This document shows, one piece after another, positions 36,489 to 44,363 of a stretch of 44,922 bases of DNA (positions are counted from its first letter, which is position 1; every line of letters begins with the position of its first letter). Origin of the DNA: Xanthobacteraceae bacterium. Lineage in GTDB: Bacteria > Pseudomonadota > Alphaproteobacteria > Rhizobiales > Xanthobacteraceae. Below the pieces are notes generated by a model. That model was not told where the DNA came from. It saw only the letters and a program-made list of their open reading frames with translations, and made no database searches. Position numbers and translations under genes: made by a program. The DNA lies in NCBI GenBank assembly GCA_019745775.1, contig JAIESR010000043.1, positions 1 through 44,922 of the forward strand, given 5' to 3'.

Positions 36489-37169
36489 TCATGGCCGCCT
36501 GCGATCCAGTACCTGCTTCAGCATGCGCAGGTAACTGGTGCCATGAATCGCAGCCCCTCCTCGCCCCATATTGCCGCGGTGGAGCCGCCGGCGACAGACC
36601 ACATCGGGGACGAGCACCGTCTTGATGCCGAGATCGCGCGCACGTGAGTTCCATTCGATGAACTCGCCCGTTGCGAGCGATTCATCGAATGGCCCGACGC
36701 GATCGAAATCGGATTGCCGGATCACGAGCGTCGAGGCCGCGATCCCGGGCAGCGGCGCCGGATTGAACTTAAACCCGGCCGCTTCTTCCGGCGTCAGATC
36801 GCTGCTGACAAACTGCTCCATGTGGCCGAAGACCATCGCCGGACCGTCCTCGCGCGACAGCGCGGCCACTTGGAGATCGAGCTTGCCAGGAAGCCAGATG
36901 TCATCGCTGTCAACCAGGGCGAGGATATCGGTCGCAACCAATCGGATGCCATGGTTGCGAGCGCGTGCGGCCCCACCGTGCGATATGCGCTCGTAGCGGA
37001 TGCGATCGCCCCAACCGGCGGCGACTTTCGGCGTGTCGTCTTCGGAGCCATCATCGACGACGATGATGTCGGCCGCCGGCAGAATCTGGTTGCGAACGCT
37101 TTCAATGCACTCGGACAGATATCGCGCTCCGTTATAGACGGGAATGACAACGCTGATGCCGCCGCGCAT
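36489..37169 (-). CDS. GT2-family glycosyltransferase
   Basis: A 226-residue single-domain GT-A enzyme. It has SVVIPVYNGARYL at the N-terminus, VVDDGSED (38-45), HGGAARARNHGI and the metal motif DSDD (87-90). It is short for the family, with no membrane segment, so it transfers a sugar in the cytoplasm to a lipid carrier, glycan or protein. It starts 2 bp after the GT4 gene, with a weak ribosome site, implying coupled translation. Donor and acceptor are unknown. Confidence 0.88.
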   Translation of the reverse strand: MRGGISVVIPVYNGARYLSECIESVRNQILPAADIIVVDDGSEDDTPKVAAGWGDRIRYERISHGGAARARNHGIRLVATDILALVDSDDIWLPGKLDLQVAALSREDGPAMVFGHMEQFVSSDLTPEEAAGFKFNPAPLPGIAASTLVIRQSDFDRVGPFDESLATGEFIEWNSRARDLGIKTVLVPDVVCRRRLHRGNMGRGGAAIHGTSYLRMLKQVLDRRRP

Positions 37170-37171
37170 CG

Positions 37172-38305
37172 CTATCCGACCATATCTCTTTCGACAGCGG
37201 CCGACGCCTGCGTTTCCGCGTAAACTTGCTCGTAGGCGTCGACCAATGCGGGAAAACTAAATCTATCACGCGCGCGCTGGCGTGCACGCTCGCTCATCCG
37301 TTCGACCAAGGAAACATCCGACAGCAGGCGTTCGACGGCGTCTGCCATGGCCTGCTCATCGTCCGCCGCCACCAGCAGCCCGGTCTGATTGTGCTCAACC
37401 ACTTCGGGCAATCCGCCAACGCTGCAGGCGACAACGGGACGGCCCATCTGCGCCGCCTGCAACGCCACCAGGCCGAAAGGCTCCGGCCAGCGCGATGGCA
37501 TCACCACCACGGTCGAGGTATTGATCATCGCCCCTACGCGATCAGGCGCAACCCAGCCCGGAAAGTCGACGTCCTCGGCGAGCCCGAGGCCGCGCGCGAG
37601 CGCCTCGAGGCGGGCCTTCTCCGGCCCGTCTCCAGCCACGACGAACTTTGCGACCACGCCGCGATCGCGCAAGCGCGCGAACATGCGGATCGCAAGATCG
37701 AAACCTTTGTCCGATCGCATCCGGCCGATACAGAGCAGCACCGGAGGTGTCAACGGAAGGTCAGTTGGCGACAGATCCGGCCAGGGCAGCGCGTTCGGGA
37801 TCATCGACATCTTGCCGCGAAGCGCGGGCATTGCTGCGACCGCATCGTCGTATTGCGCTTGCGACACCATGACGATGCGGTCGGCATCCGCGGCGAGGCG
37901 CGCCTGCAGCCCGTCCTTGCCAACCGGCCGGATCGGCGAATGAAGCGTCAGAACGCGCCGAAGATTGCCGGTCGCGCCGCCCCGGAGAAAACAAAAGCTG
38001 CTCGTCAAGGCATCGTTGAGATGCAGGATGTCGGGCCGAAAGCGGTCGACGAGCTCGGCGACGGCGGTTTTGACACTGCGGAGCACGACCAGATTGCGGC
38101 TCGCCACGGCATAGTCGAAATCGAGCCTGACAAGATCGACCCCCTCAAACGTCTGGGCGCCCAAAGGGTCTGATTGATCGCGCCCGGTGACCACGAGAAC
38201 TTCGTAGCCCCGCCGGCTCAGTTCCTTCAGGAGGTGATAGGACAGGACCTCCACACCGCCGATAGTGCTTAGCAGGAACCCGTTACACTGGTAGAGTAAG
38301 CGCAC
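37172..38305 (-). CDS. GT4-family glycosyltransferase
   Basis: A 377-residue GT-B enzyme. The N-terminal domain has GGVEVLSYHLLKELSRRGYE; the C-terminal nucleotide-sugar domain has LCIGRMRSDKGFDLAIR, VAGDGPEKARLE and WPEPFGLVALQAAQMGRPVV. In the usual EX7E motif the second Glu is Gln here (EPFGLVALQ). It starts at GTG with GAGG 7 nt upstream. It forms a two-gene unit with the GT2 and is divergent from the GT32 gene (64-bp gap). Confidence 0.9.
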   Translation of the reverse strand: MRLLYQCNGFLLSTIGGVEVLSYHLLKELSRRGYEVLVVTGRDQSDPLGAQTFEGVDLVRLDFDYAVASRNLVVLRSVKTAVAELVDRFRPDILHLNDALTSSFCFLRGGATGNLRRVLTLHSPIRPVGKDGLQARLAADADRIVMVSQAQYDDAVAAMPALRGKMSMIPNALPWPDLSPTDLPLTPPVLLCIGRMRSDKGFDLAIRMFARLRDRGVVAKFVVAGDGPEKARLEALARGLGLAEDVDFPGWVAPDRVGAMINTSTVVVMPSRWPEPFGLVALQAAQMGRPVVACSVGGLPEVVEHNQTGLLVAADDEQAMADAVERLLSDVSLVERMSERARQRARDRFSFPALVDAYEQVYAETQASAAVERDMVG

Positions 38306-38369
38306 GAACGCACCTCGGAAAACGCCGCCAACGTGCGACTCGTTCTTCTGCCATCGCCAAGGGCAACTG

Positions 38370-39098
38370 ATGATCCCGCGAATTATCCACCAGTCGTGGA
38401 AGGTTGAGCAAGTGCCGGACCGATGGCTCGCGTTTCAGCAGAGTTGGCGCACGAACCATCCAGACTATGAATATCGCTTCTGGACCGATGACGCCAATCG
38501 CGCCTTTGTTGCCGAGTTTTTCCCCGAGTTCCTCGCCGTTTATGATGGTTACCGGCACCCGATCAGCCGGGCGGACCTCGCCCGCTATCTGGTGGTCTGC
38601 CACTTCGGGGGCATCTACTCGGATCTCGACTGCGAGTCCTTGAAGCCGCTGGATGATCTGATCGCCGGGCAGGAACTGGTGTTCGGGCTTGAGCCACCAT
38701 CGCACGCACAGCGCCCGACGGTCGCGTCGCGCGGCTTCACACGGGTCGTCTGCAACGCGCTGTTCGCCTCGGTGCCGGGCCATCCATTCTGGCAGCATCT
38801 CTTTCCCTTGCTGATGGCGAGCAAAGACGAAGGCAATGTGTTGGAATGCGCGGGCCCGTTTGCGTTGACGCGCGCCTATGACAGTTATCCGTCACCGCAA
38901 CGCATCACCATCCTGCCGTCGGACATCCTGTATCCGCTTGATAACTATCTCCGGCCTGCAACCGATCGTACGAACGCAGCGGGCCCCTACGCCGTGCACC
39001 ATTGGTCCGGGAGCTGGTGGCGCGACGCCGTCCTCAACAGCGCCCGCCGCCGGATTATTGCTGCGCGTGCTGCTGCTGAGTCTGGCGAAGATCGCTGA
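38370..39098 (+). CDS. GT32/Och1-like glycosyltransferase (DXD sugar-binding)
   Basis: A 242-residue enzyme. It has IPRIIHQSWK at the start, RADLARYLVVCHFGGIYSDLD (residues 68-87, given by key residues R72 and the DXD D85-L-D87) and AVHHWSGSW near the end. The family includes capsule and O-antigen hexosyltransferases and the catalytic domains of TcdA/B toxins. AAGGG precedes the ATG. Its 3' end overlaps the end of the convergent kinase-like gene by 44 bp, which suggests long-standing linkage. Confidence 0.88.
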   Translation: MIPRIIHQSWKVEQVPDRWLAFQQSWRTNHPDYEYRFWTDDANRAFVAEFFPEFLAVYDGYRHPISRADLARYLVVCHFGGIYSDLDCESLKPLDDLIAGQELVFGLEPPSHAQRPTVASRGFTRVVCNALFASVPGHPFWQHLFPLLMASKDEGNVLECAGPFALTRAYDSYPSPQRITILPSDILYPLDNYLRPATDRTNAAGPYAVHHWSGSWWRDAVLNSARRRIIAARAAAESGEDR

Positions 39099-40143
39099 GC
39101 AGCCGGGCGAGCAACGGCGGCACTTCGTCGATCGAAGCACCCACGCGCAACTCGTAGCAGGGACGCTCGCGCAGCAATTCCGAGACCTTGCGCAGCGTGT
39201 GGCCGCCGGTCCAGCGCGACAGCTCGATGGTGCTCATCGCAATCGCCTTGTGCGCGACCGCCGAAGCAACGGGAGCAATCTCGCTCGGGCCTTGTCCGAT
39301 CACGCGCGGCAGCAAGACCGCGCTTAGCGGCATTTGACGGATGAGCCGCTCGGTGAACTTGTCATTGAGGAAGAACAGCGCCTTCTCGCGATCCAAGCGA
39401 TCGGGGTTGCTTTCGGCGCCACGTAAATGCGGATGGCGGATGAGATCGCCGCCTGCCATTTTCCCCGTGCAATAGAGGCTATGCACGGTCCACTCGGGTG
39501 ATTGCGACAGGAAGCAGAAGTCGTCGCTGGCATAGAGAAGGTCCGAATTCAGGCAGGCAAGCGCGACATTGGACTTGCCCTGCCCGCCCGCGCCGGCCAG
39601 GAAGACCCCACCATCAGCACGGCCGACCGCTCCGCCATGGATCGCAACCATGCCGACGCGCTGGAGCCACTCATGCAGAAGCGGCCGCAACGGGGCGCCG
39701 ATTTCCCAATACGGAAGTTTCAAGGCGTCCGCGGTCCAATACATCGCGCGCCGGTGCTTCATGTCGATCATCCGCAGAATGATCGGCTCGAACTGCATTC
39801 CCGTATGAAAGCGCGTGTCATTGAAGCCGGAGATGTATCCCTCGCGGCGATAGGCCTCCGGCCCCCAGCCGGGTGACATCGATGGCCAGCCGGTGCTTTC
39901 GCTGTCCCACACGCACAGCACGAGCTCCGGCTCGGCAACCGCTGGTACGATCAAGTGCGCCAGTGCGGGCATGACCGCCCGCTCCATGGCACCGGCCGAT
40001 ATCTCGATCCGGACGATGCGGCCGGCGAGCGCAATGTATCGCTGCAGGACAGCTCCCGGCGACGCGGCCAGGTCGCCGAATTTTCGGAACGCCGAGTCGT
40101 AGAAGGCCTCCGCGCGTTGCACGGCGGAACTCATGTCAACCAT
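39055..40143 (-). CDS. HPr kinase-related (HprK-like) P-loop protein
   Basis: A 362-residue protein. Its C-terminal half resembles HPr kinase/phosphorylase: MVAIHGGAV (165-173), Walker A LAGAGGQGKSNVAL (182-195) and YASDDF (204-209). The N-terminal 160 residues are not recognised. True HprK regulators act on HPr, but stand-alone relatives beside PqqD proteins are thought to phosphorylate peptides or other small partners; lasso-peptide clusters have such a kinase. No HPr gene is near. The pqqD-like gene lies 30 bp upstream on the same strand. ATG 40143 or 40134 may be the start; neither has a strong ribosome site. Function is inferred. Confidence 0.8.
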   Translation of the reverse strand: MVDMSSAVQRAEAFYDSAFRKFGDLAASPGAVLQRYIALAGRIVRIEISAGAMERAVMPALAHLIVPAVAEPELVLCVWDSESTGWPSMSPGWGPEAYRREGYISGFNDTRFHTGMQFEPIILRMIDMKHRRAMYWTADALKLPYWEIGAPLRPLLHEWLQRVGMVAIHGGAVGRADGGVFLAGAGGQGKSNVALACLNSDLLYASDDFCFLSQSPEWTVHSLYCTGKMAGGDLIRHPHLRGAESNPDRLDREKALFFLNDKFTERLIRQMPLSAVLLPRVIGQGPSEIAPVASAVAHKAIAMSTIELSRWTGGHTLRKVSELLRERPCYELRVGASIDEVPPLLARLLSDLRQTQQQHAQQ

Positions 40144-40173
40144 GGGAACGCTGGATGCTTTTGGAGGCGGCCG

Positions 40174-40617
40174 TCAGTCGGGCACACGCCTGGCGCTCGG
40201 CCAGCCATGCTCGTCCACCTCATGAATGGGATCGAGCAGAAGCATCTCCTCCATGTCGGTGTATTTTTGCAGCAGCGGCAAGGAGAATTGATCATTCTTG
40301 CTCGGCGCTGCGGCGATCGTCAGCTCTCGGTCGGCGCCACCATCGACGGTGTTGTCGGCTTCCACGAGCGCTTCCGCGACCAGCTGATCCAGGAACCTTG
40401 CCGTGGCACCGGCAATCTCTTCGCTATTGCCCGCATACTCGGCCCGCACGCGCTGCAGAATGCCCGCCTCCGGCACACCGTCGGTGACCAAGCTCCAGAT
40501 TGCAGTAGCGGTCCCCTGCGCGCTGTAGTAGCTGCCTGAATCCAGGTTCAAAATAACCGTTTCATCGCCAAACCGCTCATGAACGGTGGAGGGTTTCAGC
40601 CTGAATGATCGCATCAT
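40174..40617 (-). CDS. PqqD-like protein with long acidic C-terminal tail
   Basis: A 147-residue protein. Residues 14-87 form a PqqD/RRE winged helix (HERFGDETVILNLDSGSYY, then TATAIWSLVTDG and the helix ending VAEALVEAD). PqqD domains hold peptide substrates for modifying enzymes. A 60-residue tail follows, with KYTDMEEMLLLDPIHEVDEH and then GWP, which is not part of PqqD. The start is GTG-ATG-ATG with no clear Shine-Dalgarno sequence; the first ATG is taken. It precedes the kinase-like gene and is divergent from the nucleotidyltransferase. No separate precursor peptide gene is seen. Confidence 0.85.
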   Translation of the reverse strand: MMRSFRLKPSTVHERFGDETVILNLDSGSYYSAQGTATAIWSLVTDGVPEAGILQRVRAEYAGNSEEIAGATARFLDQLVAEALVEADNTVDGGADRELTIAAAPSKNDQFSLPLLQKYTDMEEMLLLDPIHEVDEHGWPSARRVPD

Positions 40618-40701
40618 CACTTTACGCTAACGTGCTGCTGCCGTTATGGCTCATTAAACACTATAAGCGACGGCTTGAGGGCAAAACAACAGGCTTTGTG
40701 G

Positions 40702-42189
40702 ATGAGCGCCATGTCCCCCTTGGGCGCGTACTTGCGGAATCGTTTGGTCGAACGCAGCTGGCCTACCGGCGCGATTCACTTGCTGCTCGCAGCGGGCATC
40801 GCGCCTCGTCCCCAAGCCGAACAAGCATGGGCGGCCTGGAACAGAACGCGCGACTTCGACGAGGTCACCTGGCAGGAAAAGCGATTGCTTGCCGCGTTCT
40901 CAACGCGAATTGCCGAACTCGACCCCGGATCGCCCCTCGTGCCGAGGATCAACGGCCTGACCAAGCACTTGTGGACGGCGGCACGCCGAACGCTCGGCCA
41001 GACGCTCGACGCGTTCGACGTGCTGAACACCGCCCGCATTCCGTTCATCGTATTCAAGGGCGGCGCACTTCTGGTCGAGGATTTCGCTTCCACGCGCCGG
41101 CGCATCTTGAGCGACATCGACGTCCTGGTTCGCCCGCAGGCGGCACCCGACGCACTCAAATGCCTGATCGACGCCGGCTGGTGCTCCATCAATGGCGAGT
41201 CTGCTGCCCTGCTGCATCGTCTGACGCAGGCGCAGGTCCGGCGCAGCGGCAACTACCGAAAAGGCCAATACGGAGAGATCGATCTTCACAGCTTCCCGTT
41301 CCATTACTCGAGGTCCGGCGAAGTGATGGACGAGGCGCTTTGGCAGCAAGCGAAATCGGCAATGGTCGGCACCCGATCGGTCCTGATTCCCGATTCAACG
41401 AACTCGATCGTCATCAGCCTGGCCCATGCGCCACAGACCGGCACCGCCGAATGGGCCTTCGACGTCGCCACTCGCGTTGCCTATCAGGCCATCGATTGGG
41501 AAAAGCTCGTCTATATCGCGCGCGAACGCGACCTCGTTCCATCTTGTCTCGCCGGCCTTCGCTACCTGCGGGAGCGGCTGTCGGTACCGATCCCGCAAGT
41601 CACGTTGGACGCGCTGACCAGCGCGCCGGTAAGCGCCGCGGCATGGGCGAAATACTGGTCGAATATTTCCAACCGGGGCAGCCAGAACCTTGTCCAAAAG
41701 ACCGCCGAACGCATCGCCGATCGCGCCCTGCGAAAGCGCAATTATTCAGTCCATACCAAAGACCGGGTAGCGGTGACGGTGGCTCGGCCGACCGTCTTGC
41801 GACGGTGGCCGATTGGGACCCGTCAGTCGATTCCAGTCCCATCACCGTATCCAGATTATCGCCACGAATTGCTGGTGAGCAGCGGCTCCAAAGGTCGGCG
41901 CTTGGCCATCAAGCTTGCCGTCGCAACGCCGCCGCTGTCGCGCCGCATCTTCTTCGACGTGACCGCCGATGGGATTGCCGTGGCACGACTGCGGAGCCGG
42001 CTTGGACCGCCGGAAAGCCACGAGAAGAAGATTACGTTCGTGCTGCCACTGCCGAAGCCGCGCGAAAGTGATATCGCGATCTCGATCGAAGCGCGGCCGG
42101 TCGCCTTCGTGCCACCGAACGCGCACGCCGAACTTCACATCGCGAACGACGCGCTCAAATTTCGACTGGTTTCTGCCTGGACCATGTAA
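40702..42189 (+). CDS. Nucleotidyltransferase-fold protein (NTP_transf_5 type)
   Basis: A 495-residue protein. FIVFKGGALLVEDFAS (116-130) and RRRILSDIDVLVRP (132-145), with K119 and the Asp pair 138/140, are the core of this uncharacterised nucleotidyltransferase family. A helical middle section follows. A C-terminal part (from about residue 390) looks like a beta-rich domain I cannot name. The family occurs beside PqqD and HprK-like genes. ATG 40702 is chosen; a TTG upstream at 40675 is less likely. The epimerase gene follows after 13 bp. Target and nucleotide are unknown. Confidence 0.82.
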   Translation: MSAMSPLGAYLRNRLVERSWPTGAIHLLLAAGIAPRPQAEQAWAAWNRTRDFDEVTWQEKRLLAAFSTRIAELDPGSPLVPRINGLTKHLWTAARRTLGQTLDAFDVLNTARIPFIVFKGGALLVEDFASTRRRILSDIDVLVRPQAAPDALKCLIDAGWCSINGESAALLHRLTQAQVRRSGNYRKGQYGEIDLHSFPFHYSRSGEVMDEALWQQAKSAMVGTRSVLIPDSTNSIVISLAHAPQTGTAEWAFDVATRVAYQAIDWEKLVYIARERDLVPSCLAGLRYLRERLSVPIPQVTLDALTSAPVSAAAWAKYWSNISNRGSQNLVQKTAERIADRALRKRNYSVHTKDRVAVTVARPTVLRRWPIGTRQSIPVPSPYPDYRHELLVSSGSKGRRLAIKLAVATPPLSRRIFFDVTADGIAVARLRSRLGPPESHEKKITFVLPLPKPRESDIAISIEARPVAFVPPNAHAELHIANDALKFRLVSAWTM

Positions 42190-42202
42190 GCTCCGGATCG
42201 CC

Positions 42203-43573
42203 ATGAGCCGCAGCGAACGTATGGGTCGGAAGATCCGCAAACTGGCTGTACGAGCAGCCGTTGCCATTCACGGAACGACCAGTCGATGGCAGCGGATCGG
42301 CGCGGTTGGTCGATTTGCCCGCAGCTCGGTGCGGCCCGATGCAGTGCAACTCGATGCCATACGCCACCAGGCGAATGCTGCGCTGGCCGACAACATATTG
42401 CCGTTCTGGGCTTCTCACGCGGTCGACGACCGCCATGGCGGCTTCGTCACGCATCTCGATCGGGCAGGCCAATGGCTCGGCCCGACCGACAAATATCTCG
42501 TCCCTCAAGCACGGCTGGTCTGGACCTTTGCGGCGGCGCACCGCCACGGCCTTGTGGACAAAGGCTATCTCGATACGGCTGCCGCAGGAGCCCACTTTCT
42601 CGTCGAGCGCATGTGGGATGCAGAAGTCGGGGGCTTTCACTGGACCGTGCAACGCGATGGCCGCCCGTCAGTCCGGGACAAGGTCACTTATGGCCAGGCG
42701 TTCGCAATTTTTGCGCTGTCAGAATATGCGCTCGCGGCCGACAGTCGGTGGGCGCGAAACTGGGCCATCAATACTTTTGACGTTCTGGCCGAACGTGCCG
42801 GCGACGGCCCGTTCGGCTTTCGTGAGAAATTCGATGAACGCTGGCGGCCGGCACCGGGACGTATCGGCAGCGGCAAGACGGTGAATGTGCATCTGCACCT
42901 GATCGAAGCGCTAACGCGGCTGTTCCAGGCCACGGGTGAAACGCGCCACGCGGCGCAACTTCGCGACCTTATCGACCTCGTGTTGAGCCACGGCGTTCAC
43001 CGGCGGGATTTCTATGCGATAGACGACCTTCTCGAAAACGATTGGCGTTGGCGGAAATCCCCGCTCCGCACCAGCTACGGCCACAATGTCGAGCTTGCCT
43101 GGCTCGTGCGGCATGCCATCGACGTGCTCGGCGACCCTGCCGACCGTGTCCGCAACCATGTGCTTGGGCTGATCGATCATGCGCTGGATTTCGGCTTCGA
43201 CCATCGACATGGCGGATTGGCGCTTGCGGGACCGCCTTTAGGCCGGGCGCGTTTCGCCTGGTATCTCGGCGCGGACCTACGCATCAGGCGCTGGTGGGAG
43301 CAGGCCGAAATGCTGGTCGCGACACTCGTGGCTTATGAGCTGACGAGAGAGCCCCGCTATCTCCTCGCGTTCGAGCGGCAATTCGATTGGGTCTGGAGCC
43401 ATCAGATCGACCATCGCGAAGGCGACTGGTTTGAGTCAACGCATTGGCAAACGGGAAATCCACTGAGTTTGATCAAGGGTGGCGAGTGGAAAGAGCCTTA
43501 TCACGGAGCGCGCGCGCTGATGGAGGTGTCGCAGCGACTGTCAAAACTGATCGGGCAGCCGCCAGATTCATGA
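42203..43573 (+). CDS. AGE-family sugar 2-epimerase/isomerase
   Basis: A 456-residue (alpha/alpha)6-barrel protein of the N-acylglucosamine/cellobiose 2-epimerase family. It has DDRHGGFVTHLDRAGQ near residue 75, VTYGQAFAIFALSEYA, SYGHNVELAWL (the conserved GHxxExxWL helix), DWFE and KEPYHGARALMEV at the end. It interconverts sugars at C2, for example GlcNAc/ManNAc or mannose/glucose types. The N-terminal 45 basic residues are an extension. It is co-directional with the nucleotidyltransferase (13-bp gap) and may supply the sugar for the nearby glycosyltransferases. Confidence 0.87.
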   Translation: MSRSERMGRKIRKLAVRAAVAIHGTTSRWQRIGAVGRFARSSVRPDAVQLDAIRHQANAALADNILPFWASHAVDDRHGGFVTHLDRAGQWLGPTDKYLVPQARLVWTFAAAHRHGLVDKGYLDTAAAGAHFLVERMWDAEVGGFHWTVQRDGRPSVRDKVTYGQAFAIFALSEYALAADSRWARNWAINTFDVLAERAGDGPFGFREKFDERWRPAPGRIGSGKTVNVHLHLIEALTRLFQATGETRHAAQLRDLIDLVLSHGVHRRDFYAIDDLLENDWRWRKSPLRTSYGHNVELAWLVRHAIDVLGDPADRVRNHVLGLIDHALDFGFDHRHGGLALAGPPLGRARFAWYLGADLRIRRWWEQAEMLVATLVAYELTREPRYLLAFERQFDWVWSHQIDHREGDWFESTHWQTGNPLSLIKGGEWKEPYHGARALMEVSQRLSKLIGQPPDS

Positions 43574-43622: not shown

Positions 43623-43982
43623 TCAACGATCCGTCAGTGGTGCAGCCGGGATGTAGCCGAGATAGGTGCGCGGCGCACTGCTGTCGGGGATGGGAAGAGC
43701 CGACGCTCTCAAGGCCTTGATCACGGCCGTGGCGCGGCTTGTGGCCTCCAAAGTCCGCAGGATGGCCGCAACATGACTTTTCACCGCGGGCTCCGTGAGA
43801 TTCAGACTGCGGCAGATACCCTTATTACTCTTTCCCTGCGTCATAAAATCCAGGACGTCACGCTGCAGCGGCGTCAGGTCTCGAATGGCATTCAGTGTCG
43901 CGCTGCAGGTCTTGTCGACTGCAGTGAGCGGACCTGCGCTTTGGTGGGCTGCAGCTTGCGCGTTGACGTCACGAGTAACCAT
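43623..43982 (-). CDS. Single-domain LuxR/NarL-type HTH regulator
   Basis: A 119-residue protein with only the DNA-binding domain. RDLTPLQRDVLDFMTQGKSN, LNLTEPAVKSHVAAILRTL and a trailing RATAVIKAL make a complete LuxR-type helix-turn-helix (about residues 35-95). No receiver or ligand-binding domain precedes it, and no sensor kinase is near, so it is an orphan regulator like GerE-type proteins or a shortened response regulator. The ATG at 43982 has GAGAGG nearby; the frame is open 54 codons further upstream but would cross the CRP-like site. It may control the neighbouring glycan genes. Confidence 0.82.
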   Translation of the reverse strand: MVTRDVNAQAAAHQSAGPLTAVDKTCSATLNAIRDLTPLQRDVLDFMTQGKSNKGICRSLNLTEPAVKSHVAAILRTLEATSRATAVIKALRASALPIPDSSAPRTYLGYIPAAPLTDR

Positions 43983-44038
43983 TCCGGCCTCTCTTGCGCT
44001 TTGTTGGCGGGCACAAGGTACACCCCCTGAGCGTGGGC

Positions 44039-44060
44039 CAATGTGAGCTGGCTCACATTG
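44039..44060. promoter_or_regulatory. CRP-consensus palindrome upstream of the luxR-type gene
   Basis: CAATGTGAGC and GCTCACATTG, perfect 10-bp arms with a TG centre, contain TGTGA-N6-TCACA, the Escherichia coli CRP consensus. It lies 57 bp before the regulator start, followed by an AT-rich stretch (44061-44095) that could hold a promoter. Confidence 0.6.
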
Positions 44061-44363
44061 AAAGGAGTAATTATTTTCAGCAAAATCAATATCTTGGTGG
44101 AAATGCAGATCCGGGCTGGACGAATGTGTATCGCCGGGGCGCATCGCGCGGCCACCGGCGGCCAGACCTCATGCCCAGGACCCAGCGGGCCGGGCAGCCA
44201 TGGCGCGACAGGGCTTGTTGCAGGGTCGGCTTTACAAGAGGCGGAGCTTGCCGGTGCGGGGTCCTAGGACCTCCCGCTGATTCAACGCAGGCATCGATAG
44301 CCGGATGATGTGTGCGCTGGAGCACCGCGATGGGTAACCCAGCGGCGCAATCGGAAAGCGTGG
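44061..44363. other. Gene-free region
   Basis: About 300 bp with no supported gene. It contains the AT-rich segment beside the CRP-like site and a 12-bp palindrome, GGTCCTAGGACC (44260-44271), part of which recurs near 44841. Confidence 0.35.

Follow-up and report, generated by a model that had tools for sequence, protein, structure and literature searches.

A PqqD/RRE protein with a built-in leader-like tail recurs with an HprK-like kinase and glycosyltransferases in distant bacteria

Introduction

What could be made by a gene cluster in which an HPr-kinase-like protein, a PqqD-like protein and a nucleotidyltransferase lie next to genes for sugar transfer? The question is raised by contig JAIESR010000043.1 of a Xanthobacteraceae bacterium (assembly GCA_019745775.1), the whole of which (44,922 bp) is termed here the window (G000:C101, G000 being the window's own genome). 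A first-pass annotation had described this trio as embedded in a glycan locus. We report that the PqqD protein, which contains a RiPP recognition element (RRE; RiPPs are ribosomally synthesized and post-translationally modified peptides), carries a conserved C-terminal tail (coding positions 40198-40287) that the annotation did not report, and that the tail gene recurs with the kinase and with glycosyltransferases. RiPP pathways commonly use the RRE as their grip, and genome mining looks for precursor genes; if an RRE family is widespread, has its leader built in and shows no precursor, precursor-based mining would miss or misread it.

Results

The PqqD protein carries a conserved leader-like tail

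The PqqD/RRE protein (148 aa) is encoded on the minus strand at 40174-40620. It matches PF05402 with an E-value of 9.7e-12, the groove residues are kept, and it consists of an RRE (about residues 5-90), a flexible linker (87-111) and a tail (112-141). The tail is a conserved 30-residue element with the consensus F-x2-P-x-L-x-K-Y-[TS]-D-M-x-[DE]-LLLL-D-P-I-H-[DE]-V-x3-G-W-P. Judged by its sequence, the first part of this tail, F112-x2-P115-x-L117 (40270-40287, minus strand), is the motif that leader peptides use for binding to RREs, fused here to the RRE itself. The following segment, D122-P141 (DMEEMLLLDPIHEVDEHGWP; 40198-40257, minus strand), is termed the hook.

Relatives were collected in two ways. 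A search with the whole PqqD protein in 198 genomes of the family gave 20 places in 16 genomes, 13 with the tail and 7 without it; the 13 family tail genes match the window protein to the C-terminus, and two of them are in the window's genome and three in G080. An initial contig scan using a single protein gave no confirmed relatives. GTDB contigs were then scanned with guidance from a profile; of the 351 stretches matched, 323 encode relatives with the tail pattern, and the best 80 of these 323 were examined (the named loci). The named loci were selected by the pattern [LM][LI]x[LM]DP[IV]H[DE]V and the counts use a motif filter, so that selection accounts for part of the conservation inside this pattern; FxxPxL, Y-[TS]-D and GWP fall outside it. 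Gene calling was mechanical, and overlapping open reading frames (ORFs) removed some genes from the locus maps.

Over 93 tails, position 1 of the docking motif is F in 87, W in 4, Y in 1 and L in 1, and the P is kept in 91; D(-8) is found in 92 of the 93 and GWP closes the hook in 92. In an alignment of 74 rows, D122, D130, P131, H133, V135, G139, W140 and P141 are invariant in the hook. The 13 family proteins, which were found by a search that made no use of the motif, have D130, P131, H133, W140 and P141 invariant in the tail and keep E20, G29 and W42 in the RRE. Identity is 10% in the linker (20-29 residues), 30% in the RRE and 66% in a 24-residue stretch of the tail, the last figure being partly due to selection. 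In 98 loci the tail pattern was found 93 times inside PqqD proteins and never outside them; there were no free copies of the tail in the examined loci, and no genome-wide search for free copies was made. The tail alone gave one meaningless match to PDB sequences (E 0.96), and NCBIfam and Pfam scans turned up no model for it. The PqqD C-termini of loci L047, L068, L094 and L097 show a second WP element beyond GWP.

The tail is predicted to fold back into the RRE groove

An AlphaFold2 model of the PqqD protein was built from the 74 rows, and its RRE resembles that of the TbiB1-leader complex (5v1v_A; E 5.7e-6, TM score 0.89 by target, rmsd 1.0 Å). The PqqD family profile matches lasso B1 proteins; the NCBIfam lasso B1 model gives the window protein 35 bits, below its cut-off of 80, and matches 74/74 members at E ≤0.01. 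According to excerpts of PMC13381572, the motif [Y/W]xxPx[L/V] of solved RRE-leader complexes sits in a cleft and residues past the L extend the sheet. When the pocket positions of PbaB1 and LppB were mapped through profile alignments, Y32, I41, F76, L80 and L85 were hydrophobic in 74/74 rows. Model confidence (pLDDT) is about 95 in the RRE and 96 on average in the tail block 111-120, compared to 61-67 in the linker and 56-69 in the loose end. A strand at 117-120 begins at the L of PxL, as it does in PbaA (L-10, then E-9, V-8, L-7). We infer the partner of this strand, because the confidence and the strand assignment were read and not the model coordinates.

The residues themselves provide a second line of evidence. 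RRE position 72 corresponds to PbaB1 Q79 and LppB D70, which contact leader position 1; it was chosen from the published structures, and the first two Trp cases had been seen before the test on 94 proteins was made. Position 72 is A, S or G in 68/88 Phe tails but acidic (D, D, D and E) in all four Trp tails. These four belong to two alphaproteobacterial relatives and to records with the titles Deltaproteobacteria and Bryobacterales. Covariation between position 1 and position 72 in the 94 proteins gave an uncorrected p of 0.0011, the first of 85 RRE columns (next 0.030). Combined, the model, the register of the motif and the covariation support a folding back of FxxPxL into the RRE groove, in cis or in trans. 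The PqqD protein is thus more than a chaperone for some unseen peptide, as it has its own leader-like tail.

The kinase and the nucleotidyltransferase-fold protein

The kinase gene (39055-40143, minus strand, 362 aa) follows the PqqD gene after a gap of 30 bp. Pfam supports the two other core proteins and the sugar genes of the window, and the kinase is identified by its family profile and catalytic residues. Taken alone it matches Hpr_kinase_C at E 0.019, below the cut-off. A profile of 56 relatives matches the solved HPr kinases 1jb1, 2qmh, 1ko7, 1knx and 3tqf over the P-loop region (best 1jb1, E 6.6e-7), all 56 rows have H169 and K190, 55 have D207 and 54 have D208, and Hpr_kinase_C is matched at E ≤0.01 in 37 of the 56 members, the window's own protein not being among them. 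This His-Lys-Asp-Asp set is the one named for lasso-tailoring kinases in the review PMC9266682 (cited from excerpts), and on the P-loop fold and these residues the protein is an HprK-like kinase. NCBIfam pairs by name a kinase (TIGR04352, HprK_rel_A) with a PqqD protein (TIGR04353) in its HPr-rel-A models, but the window kinase scores 21 bits against a cut-off of 200 and the window PqqD has no TIGR04353 match; 7/74 tail PqqD proteins match that model at E ≤0.01. Fusions of the kinase with a family 2 glycosyltransferase (GT2) account for 12/92 kinase ORFs, and the kinase was found in none of 50,697 phage records.

The NTP_transf_5 protein is encoded on the plus strand at 40675-42189, where the first start codon is a TTG at 40675 and the start is uncertain. 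It matches PF14907 (E 1.2e-21) with 77.8 bits against a cut-off of 31.2, and of its D147-x-D149 residues, D147 is present in 42 and D149 in 49 of 56 rows. Its model gave weak matches to nucleotidyltransferases in Foldseek (LnuA 1.1e-3, ANT(2''), FKRP 0.04), none at or below 0.001, and no solved relatives were found with the NTP profile. Residues 357-504 (41743-42189) form a C-terminal extension with a pLDDT below 50; the proteins of the other family loci read are 496-663 aa long, compared to about 390 elsewhere. A PHROGs search gave no match for the three core proteins.

Tail, kinase and glycosyltransferases recur together

Across the 198 genomes of the family, each of the 13 tail genes has one of the 13 strong kinases (E up to 3.9e-27; next match 2.1e-19) near it. 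These 13 places are spread over 10 genomes; the two genes lie no more than about 2 kb apart at 12 places and about 8 kb apart at one. Of the 80 named loci, 71 contain the kinase, and for five more it lies elsewhere in the same genome (76/80). Of the nine loci lacking it, L047, L051 and L106 lie at contig ends; in the case of L073, L079, L083 and L101 it lies 12-20 kb away on the same contig, and the genome of L111 (G588) carries it elsewhere, beside a second tail gene. The possibility that the tails of Chloroflexi are kinase-free, and thus the substrate of something else, was ruled out by these four loci and the fifth. G588 has two tail-PqqD genes and one full-length kinase, which may serve both. 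In L073 (3294-10583), and similarly in L079, L083 and L101, an AMP-binding/carrier/lipid-A-type acyltransferase protein and a sulfotransferase lie between the PqqD gene and the distant kinase, and hint at a lipidated or sulfated product. Distances between RREs and between kinases correlate over 84 loci (r 0.75), whilst 1000 permutations reach at most 0.22.

The company of the pair was also recurrent. GT2 is present in 70 of the 80 named loci, NTP_transf_5 in 59, an MsbA-like ABC exporter in 35 and a family 4 glycosyltransferase (GT4) in 27; the respective numbers in the 13 family loci are 13, 11, 2 and 7. A GT2 of the window type is found in 84/98 loci and AGE epimerase profile matches in only 4/98. 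The order PqqD-kinase-GT2-GT2-GT2-ABC-NTP recurs (e.g. L044, L070, L098, L112), and a metagenome-assembled genome (MAG) of Nevskia (L043) has the same order as the window, including the DXD transferase and the GT4. Some loci add sulfotransferases, SDRs, epimerases, a fucosyltransferase-like protein or an AMP-binding/carrier/acyltransferase protein, which point to decorated, perhaps lipidated, products. The first-pass annotation was thus right that the trio seems to recur in other bacteria, here with glycosyltransferases as well, and the kinase and PqqD genes are not found mostly apart; its glycan locus gives way to a self-contained system with glycosyltransferases of its own.

The window's genome holds a second tail-PqqD gene with a kinase (L006, G000:C142, 10249-10692) that has no NTP_transf_5 gene within 20 kb. 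Only two NTP_transf_5 genes are present in this genome, one in the window and one on G000:C73, where L007 (8373-12392) contains a tail-less PqqD, an HprK-like protein and NTP_transf_5; by reading, its flanks look like transcription and ribosomal genes.

Search for a separate precursor

Small ORFs that are shared or motif-bearing were sought in 86 of the 93 loci, seven having been dropped through overlapping ORFs. Among 2049 small ORFs, no shared free peptide was found, and the strict leader motif gave one match that was judged to be due to chance; matches near the window PqqD gene also look like chance. The LPP precursor motif YxxPxVLxHQxIxFETxxS had no strict-motif small ORF in the 86 loci, although a divergent peptide could escape. 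The neighbour proteins (123 of the 128 listed were scanned) fall into 137 Pfam families, and the 25 commonest of these, to which the check extended, include no peptidase. A macrolactam cyclase or B2 peptidase was detected neither in the ten window proteins scanned nor among the recurrent families of the tail loci. The tail-less relative L042 (2131-5548) provides a contrast: its PqqD goes with a separate YERPEL...DGGYS peptide ending in Ser, whereas tail loci share no free peptide. L042 also has, from reading the translations, an asparagine-synthetase-like cyclase and a kinase-like gene in two overlapping frames, and it resembles a lasso cluster of the paeninodin type.

Distribution

The record titles of the best 80 of the 323 loci span more than 12 phyla, most records being MAGs whose contamination is unchecked. 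They include Nitrospirae, Acidobacteria, Chloroflexi, Cyanobacteria, Deltaproteobacteria, Planctomycete groups, Lentisphaerae and Bacteroidetes, and also Ignavibacteriae, Gemmatimonadaceae, Actinobacteria, Bacillota, Eisenbacteria, Rokuibacteriota, Bipolaricaulota and Gamma-/Betaproteobacteria. A sample of 398 genomes from the phylum gave seven tail-bearing genes in six genomes. One of 72,556 plasmids carries the system, pCRI9333.04 of Crinalium epipsammum (L123), with the annotated order PqqD family protein, nucleotidyltransferase, HPr kinase, FkbM methyltransferase and glycosyltransferases. This plasmid is typed as mobilizable, and a group II intron maturase lies beside the system. Recurrence in very distant bacteria suggests an undescribed route to phosphate- and sugar-bearing molecules.

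Discussion

Relation to described systems

In borosins, the precursor is fused to its methyltransferase. A substrate-like segment is fused to its machinery there as in the tail system, but fold, chemistry and partners differ and the likeness is one of analogy only. In the open-access literature (subscription papers and preprints were outside the search), the nearest system was that of the LPP RiPPs and no RRE with a built-in leader tail was named; RRE-glycosyltransferase fusions are reported in excerpts of PMC7470986 on RRE-Finder.

In the LPP RiPPs, described in 2026 from lpp of Paenibacillus alginolyticus (PMC13381572), an RRE, an HprK-like kinase and an NTP transferase occur together, as they do in tail loci; the view that no such system is known has to be dropped. 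The two also share, as far as the excerpts go, a lasso-B1-type RRE, glycosyltransferase company, a leader motif of the [Y/W]xxPx[L/V...] kind, the lack of a recurrent macrolactam cyclase and, in 35/80 named loci, the MsbA-like exporter. LPP features of its own are a separate precursor, an SpI-type leader peptidase and a distribution reported there only from Bacillota. In contrast, the tail system has a mostly-F leader-like motif fused to the RRE, a following segment that is nearly invariant where LPP cores are variable, no recurrent free precursor or leader peptidase (25 commonest families), GT2s in the operon, and titles of many phyla.

The paeninodin and pseudomycoidin pathways (PadeK/ThcoK, PsmK, PsmN) share the His-Lys-Asp-Asp HprK-like kinase, a discrete RRE and an NTP transferase associated with the addition of hexose to phosphate (PMC9266682). 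None of their other described features, a precursor ending in Ser, a lasso cyclase and a B2 peptidase, recurs in tail loci. In pseudomycoidin one or two hexoses are added to phosphorylated Ser, and the excerpts leave a direct role of PsmN open; LppN is inactive alone (PMC13381572). From these nearest characterised systems, the phosphorylated or glycosylated product proposed by the first-pass annotation is a fair inference. Tail loci, which pair the NTP transferase with a conserved set of glycosyltransferases, bear on the role of PsmN and LppN.

A proposed self-docked RRE that presents a hook

Our preferred explanation, to which we give a probability of roughly 0.42, is that the observed gene content, tail, motif register and kinase pairing reflect one conserved system, in which a self-docked RRE presents an invariant hook to the kinase and the glycosylation enzymes and a phosphate-bearing glycan is assembled. 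In the modelled docking, RRE-bound FxxPxL would fix the hook (D-M-x-[DE]-LLLL-DPIH[DE]V-x3-GWP) in a defined pose. The near-obligatory pairing suggests that the HprK-like kinase would engage this hook, and the phosphate-bearing glycan may be built on or beside the RRE-tail scaffold. GT2, GT4 and DXD transferases would add sugars, as judged from their constant company and the kinase-GT2 fusions. By homology, the nucleotidyltransferase-fold protein might add a phosphate-linked group, as is thought for PsmN in pseudomycoidin, and the MsbA-like exporter, where it is in the operon, would export the product. The phosphate acceptor would not generally be a Ser, Thr or Tyr of the tail; candidates are an invariant Asp, His or Trp within the hook and a complex-bound sugar or lipid. 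If docked as modelled, the protein would give structure work a natural single-chain RRE-leader complex.

Several observations weigh against this explanation. Firstly, the p of the covariation would be about 0.09 when corrected for 85 columns and relatedness is not modelled; W/Y tails number five only, and position 72 is Ala in the single Tyr tail (L029) and D, E or Q also in 9/89 Phe/Leu-tail proteins. Secondly, the tail itself varies: the docking-motif Pro is lost in L006 and L035, residue -9 is T/S in 80/93 tails but in only 4/13 family proteins, and Ser, Thr and Tyr are all missing from the tails of L033 and L037, although their kinases keep H, GK[ST] and DD. The kinase chemistry of LPP and paeninodin is therefore not simply transferable to the tail. 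Thirdly, partners are missing in places: no kinase was detected in the genome of L065, NTP_transf_5 is absent from 2/13 family and 21/80 named loci (some cut at contig ends), and the exporter is in only 2/13 family loci and not in the window's cluster. As for a tail Ser or Thr as the general phospho-acceptor, this candidate was rejected on the tails of L033 and L037.

Alternatives

The docked tail may instead be an adaptor only, its hook recruiting the kinase and perhaps others, with a glycan, lipid or small acceptor phosphorylated and the protein itself never modified. We regard this as a tenable, if tentative, explanation. No hydroxyl residue is universal in the tail, the hook is kept where the docking motif has decayed (L006 and L035), and the kinase-GT2 fusions and the sulfotransferases, SDRs and epimerases of some loci fit a sugar-centred substrate. 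However, the characterised relatives of the kinase act on RRE-presented peptides (PMC13381572, PMC9266682), and a site that is modified or handled would more readily explain the second GWP-like element found in 4/93 tails. Kinase relatives polyphosphorylate peptide Ser, and the hydroxyl-free tails sharpen the question of the target of this kinase.

The self-docked hook can also be taken further, in a form that we consider rather doubtful: the protein would be a self-presenting carrier, an RRE with an absorbed leader and an invariant acceptor segment, acting as a scaffold for the kinase, the glycosyltransferases and the nucleotidyltransferase-fold enzyme, and the phosphoglycan that these build would be linked to it through Asp, His or Trp instead of a hydroxyl group. 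Such a system would be ancient or widely transferred, present in many phyla, and would not make an ordinary secreted RiPP.

It is improbable that the tail is a leader plus core, with a core that undergoes modification, cleavage and export in the manner of LPP. A fused precursor of this kind would account for the leader motif, for the lack of any other shared peptide gene in the 86 loci and for the kinase/NTP/MsbA-like set in common with LPP, but the core would offer the kinase no conserved Ser/Thr, it is nearly invariant whereas the LPP cores described are variable, the 25 commonest neighbour families contain no peptidase, and one RRE protein would be consumed per product. Still less probable is a separate, fast-changing precursor that was missed, the tail only filling the groove until displaced: a variable, motif-free peptide would escape a search of shared or motif-bearing ORFs, but the strict search gave only its one chance match, and a tail on the same polypeptide would compete with any such leader. 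That unrelated genes lie side by side in a glycan locus is extremely unlikely, and already contradicted for the kinase-PqqD pair, as the inconstant NTP, AGE and exporter genes and the second pair of the window's genome with no NTP nearby are set against 13/13 kinase-tail pairs, a recurrent operon order across titles of many phyla, and the fusions.

Other genes of the window cluster

Three glycosyltransferases were identified: a GT2 (36489-37169, minus strand; PF00535, 1.5e-28), a GT4 (37172-38305, minus strand; PF00534, 1.2e-42) and a DXD sugar-binding protein (Gly_transf_sug; 38370-39098, plus strand; PF04488, 1.6e-18). The identities given to these genes, the trio and the epimerase in the first-pass annotation were borne out by Pfam and, for the kinase, by the profile and its H-K-D-D residues. 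The placing of the trio between the glycosyltransferases was not, as all three (36489-39098) sit on one side of it and the epimerase on the other. NTP_transf_5 and AGE genes run divergently from the PqqD and kinase genes; in a promoter and terminator scan no promoter-like site was found and terminators were at chance level. The accessory AGE-family epimerase (42203-43573, plus strand; PF07221, 4.4e-41) probably starts near 42203, because the first in-frame ATG (41969) falls within the NTP gene. A LuxR-type regulator (43623-44144, minus strand; GerE, 2.9e-12) adjoins the epimerase gene.

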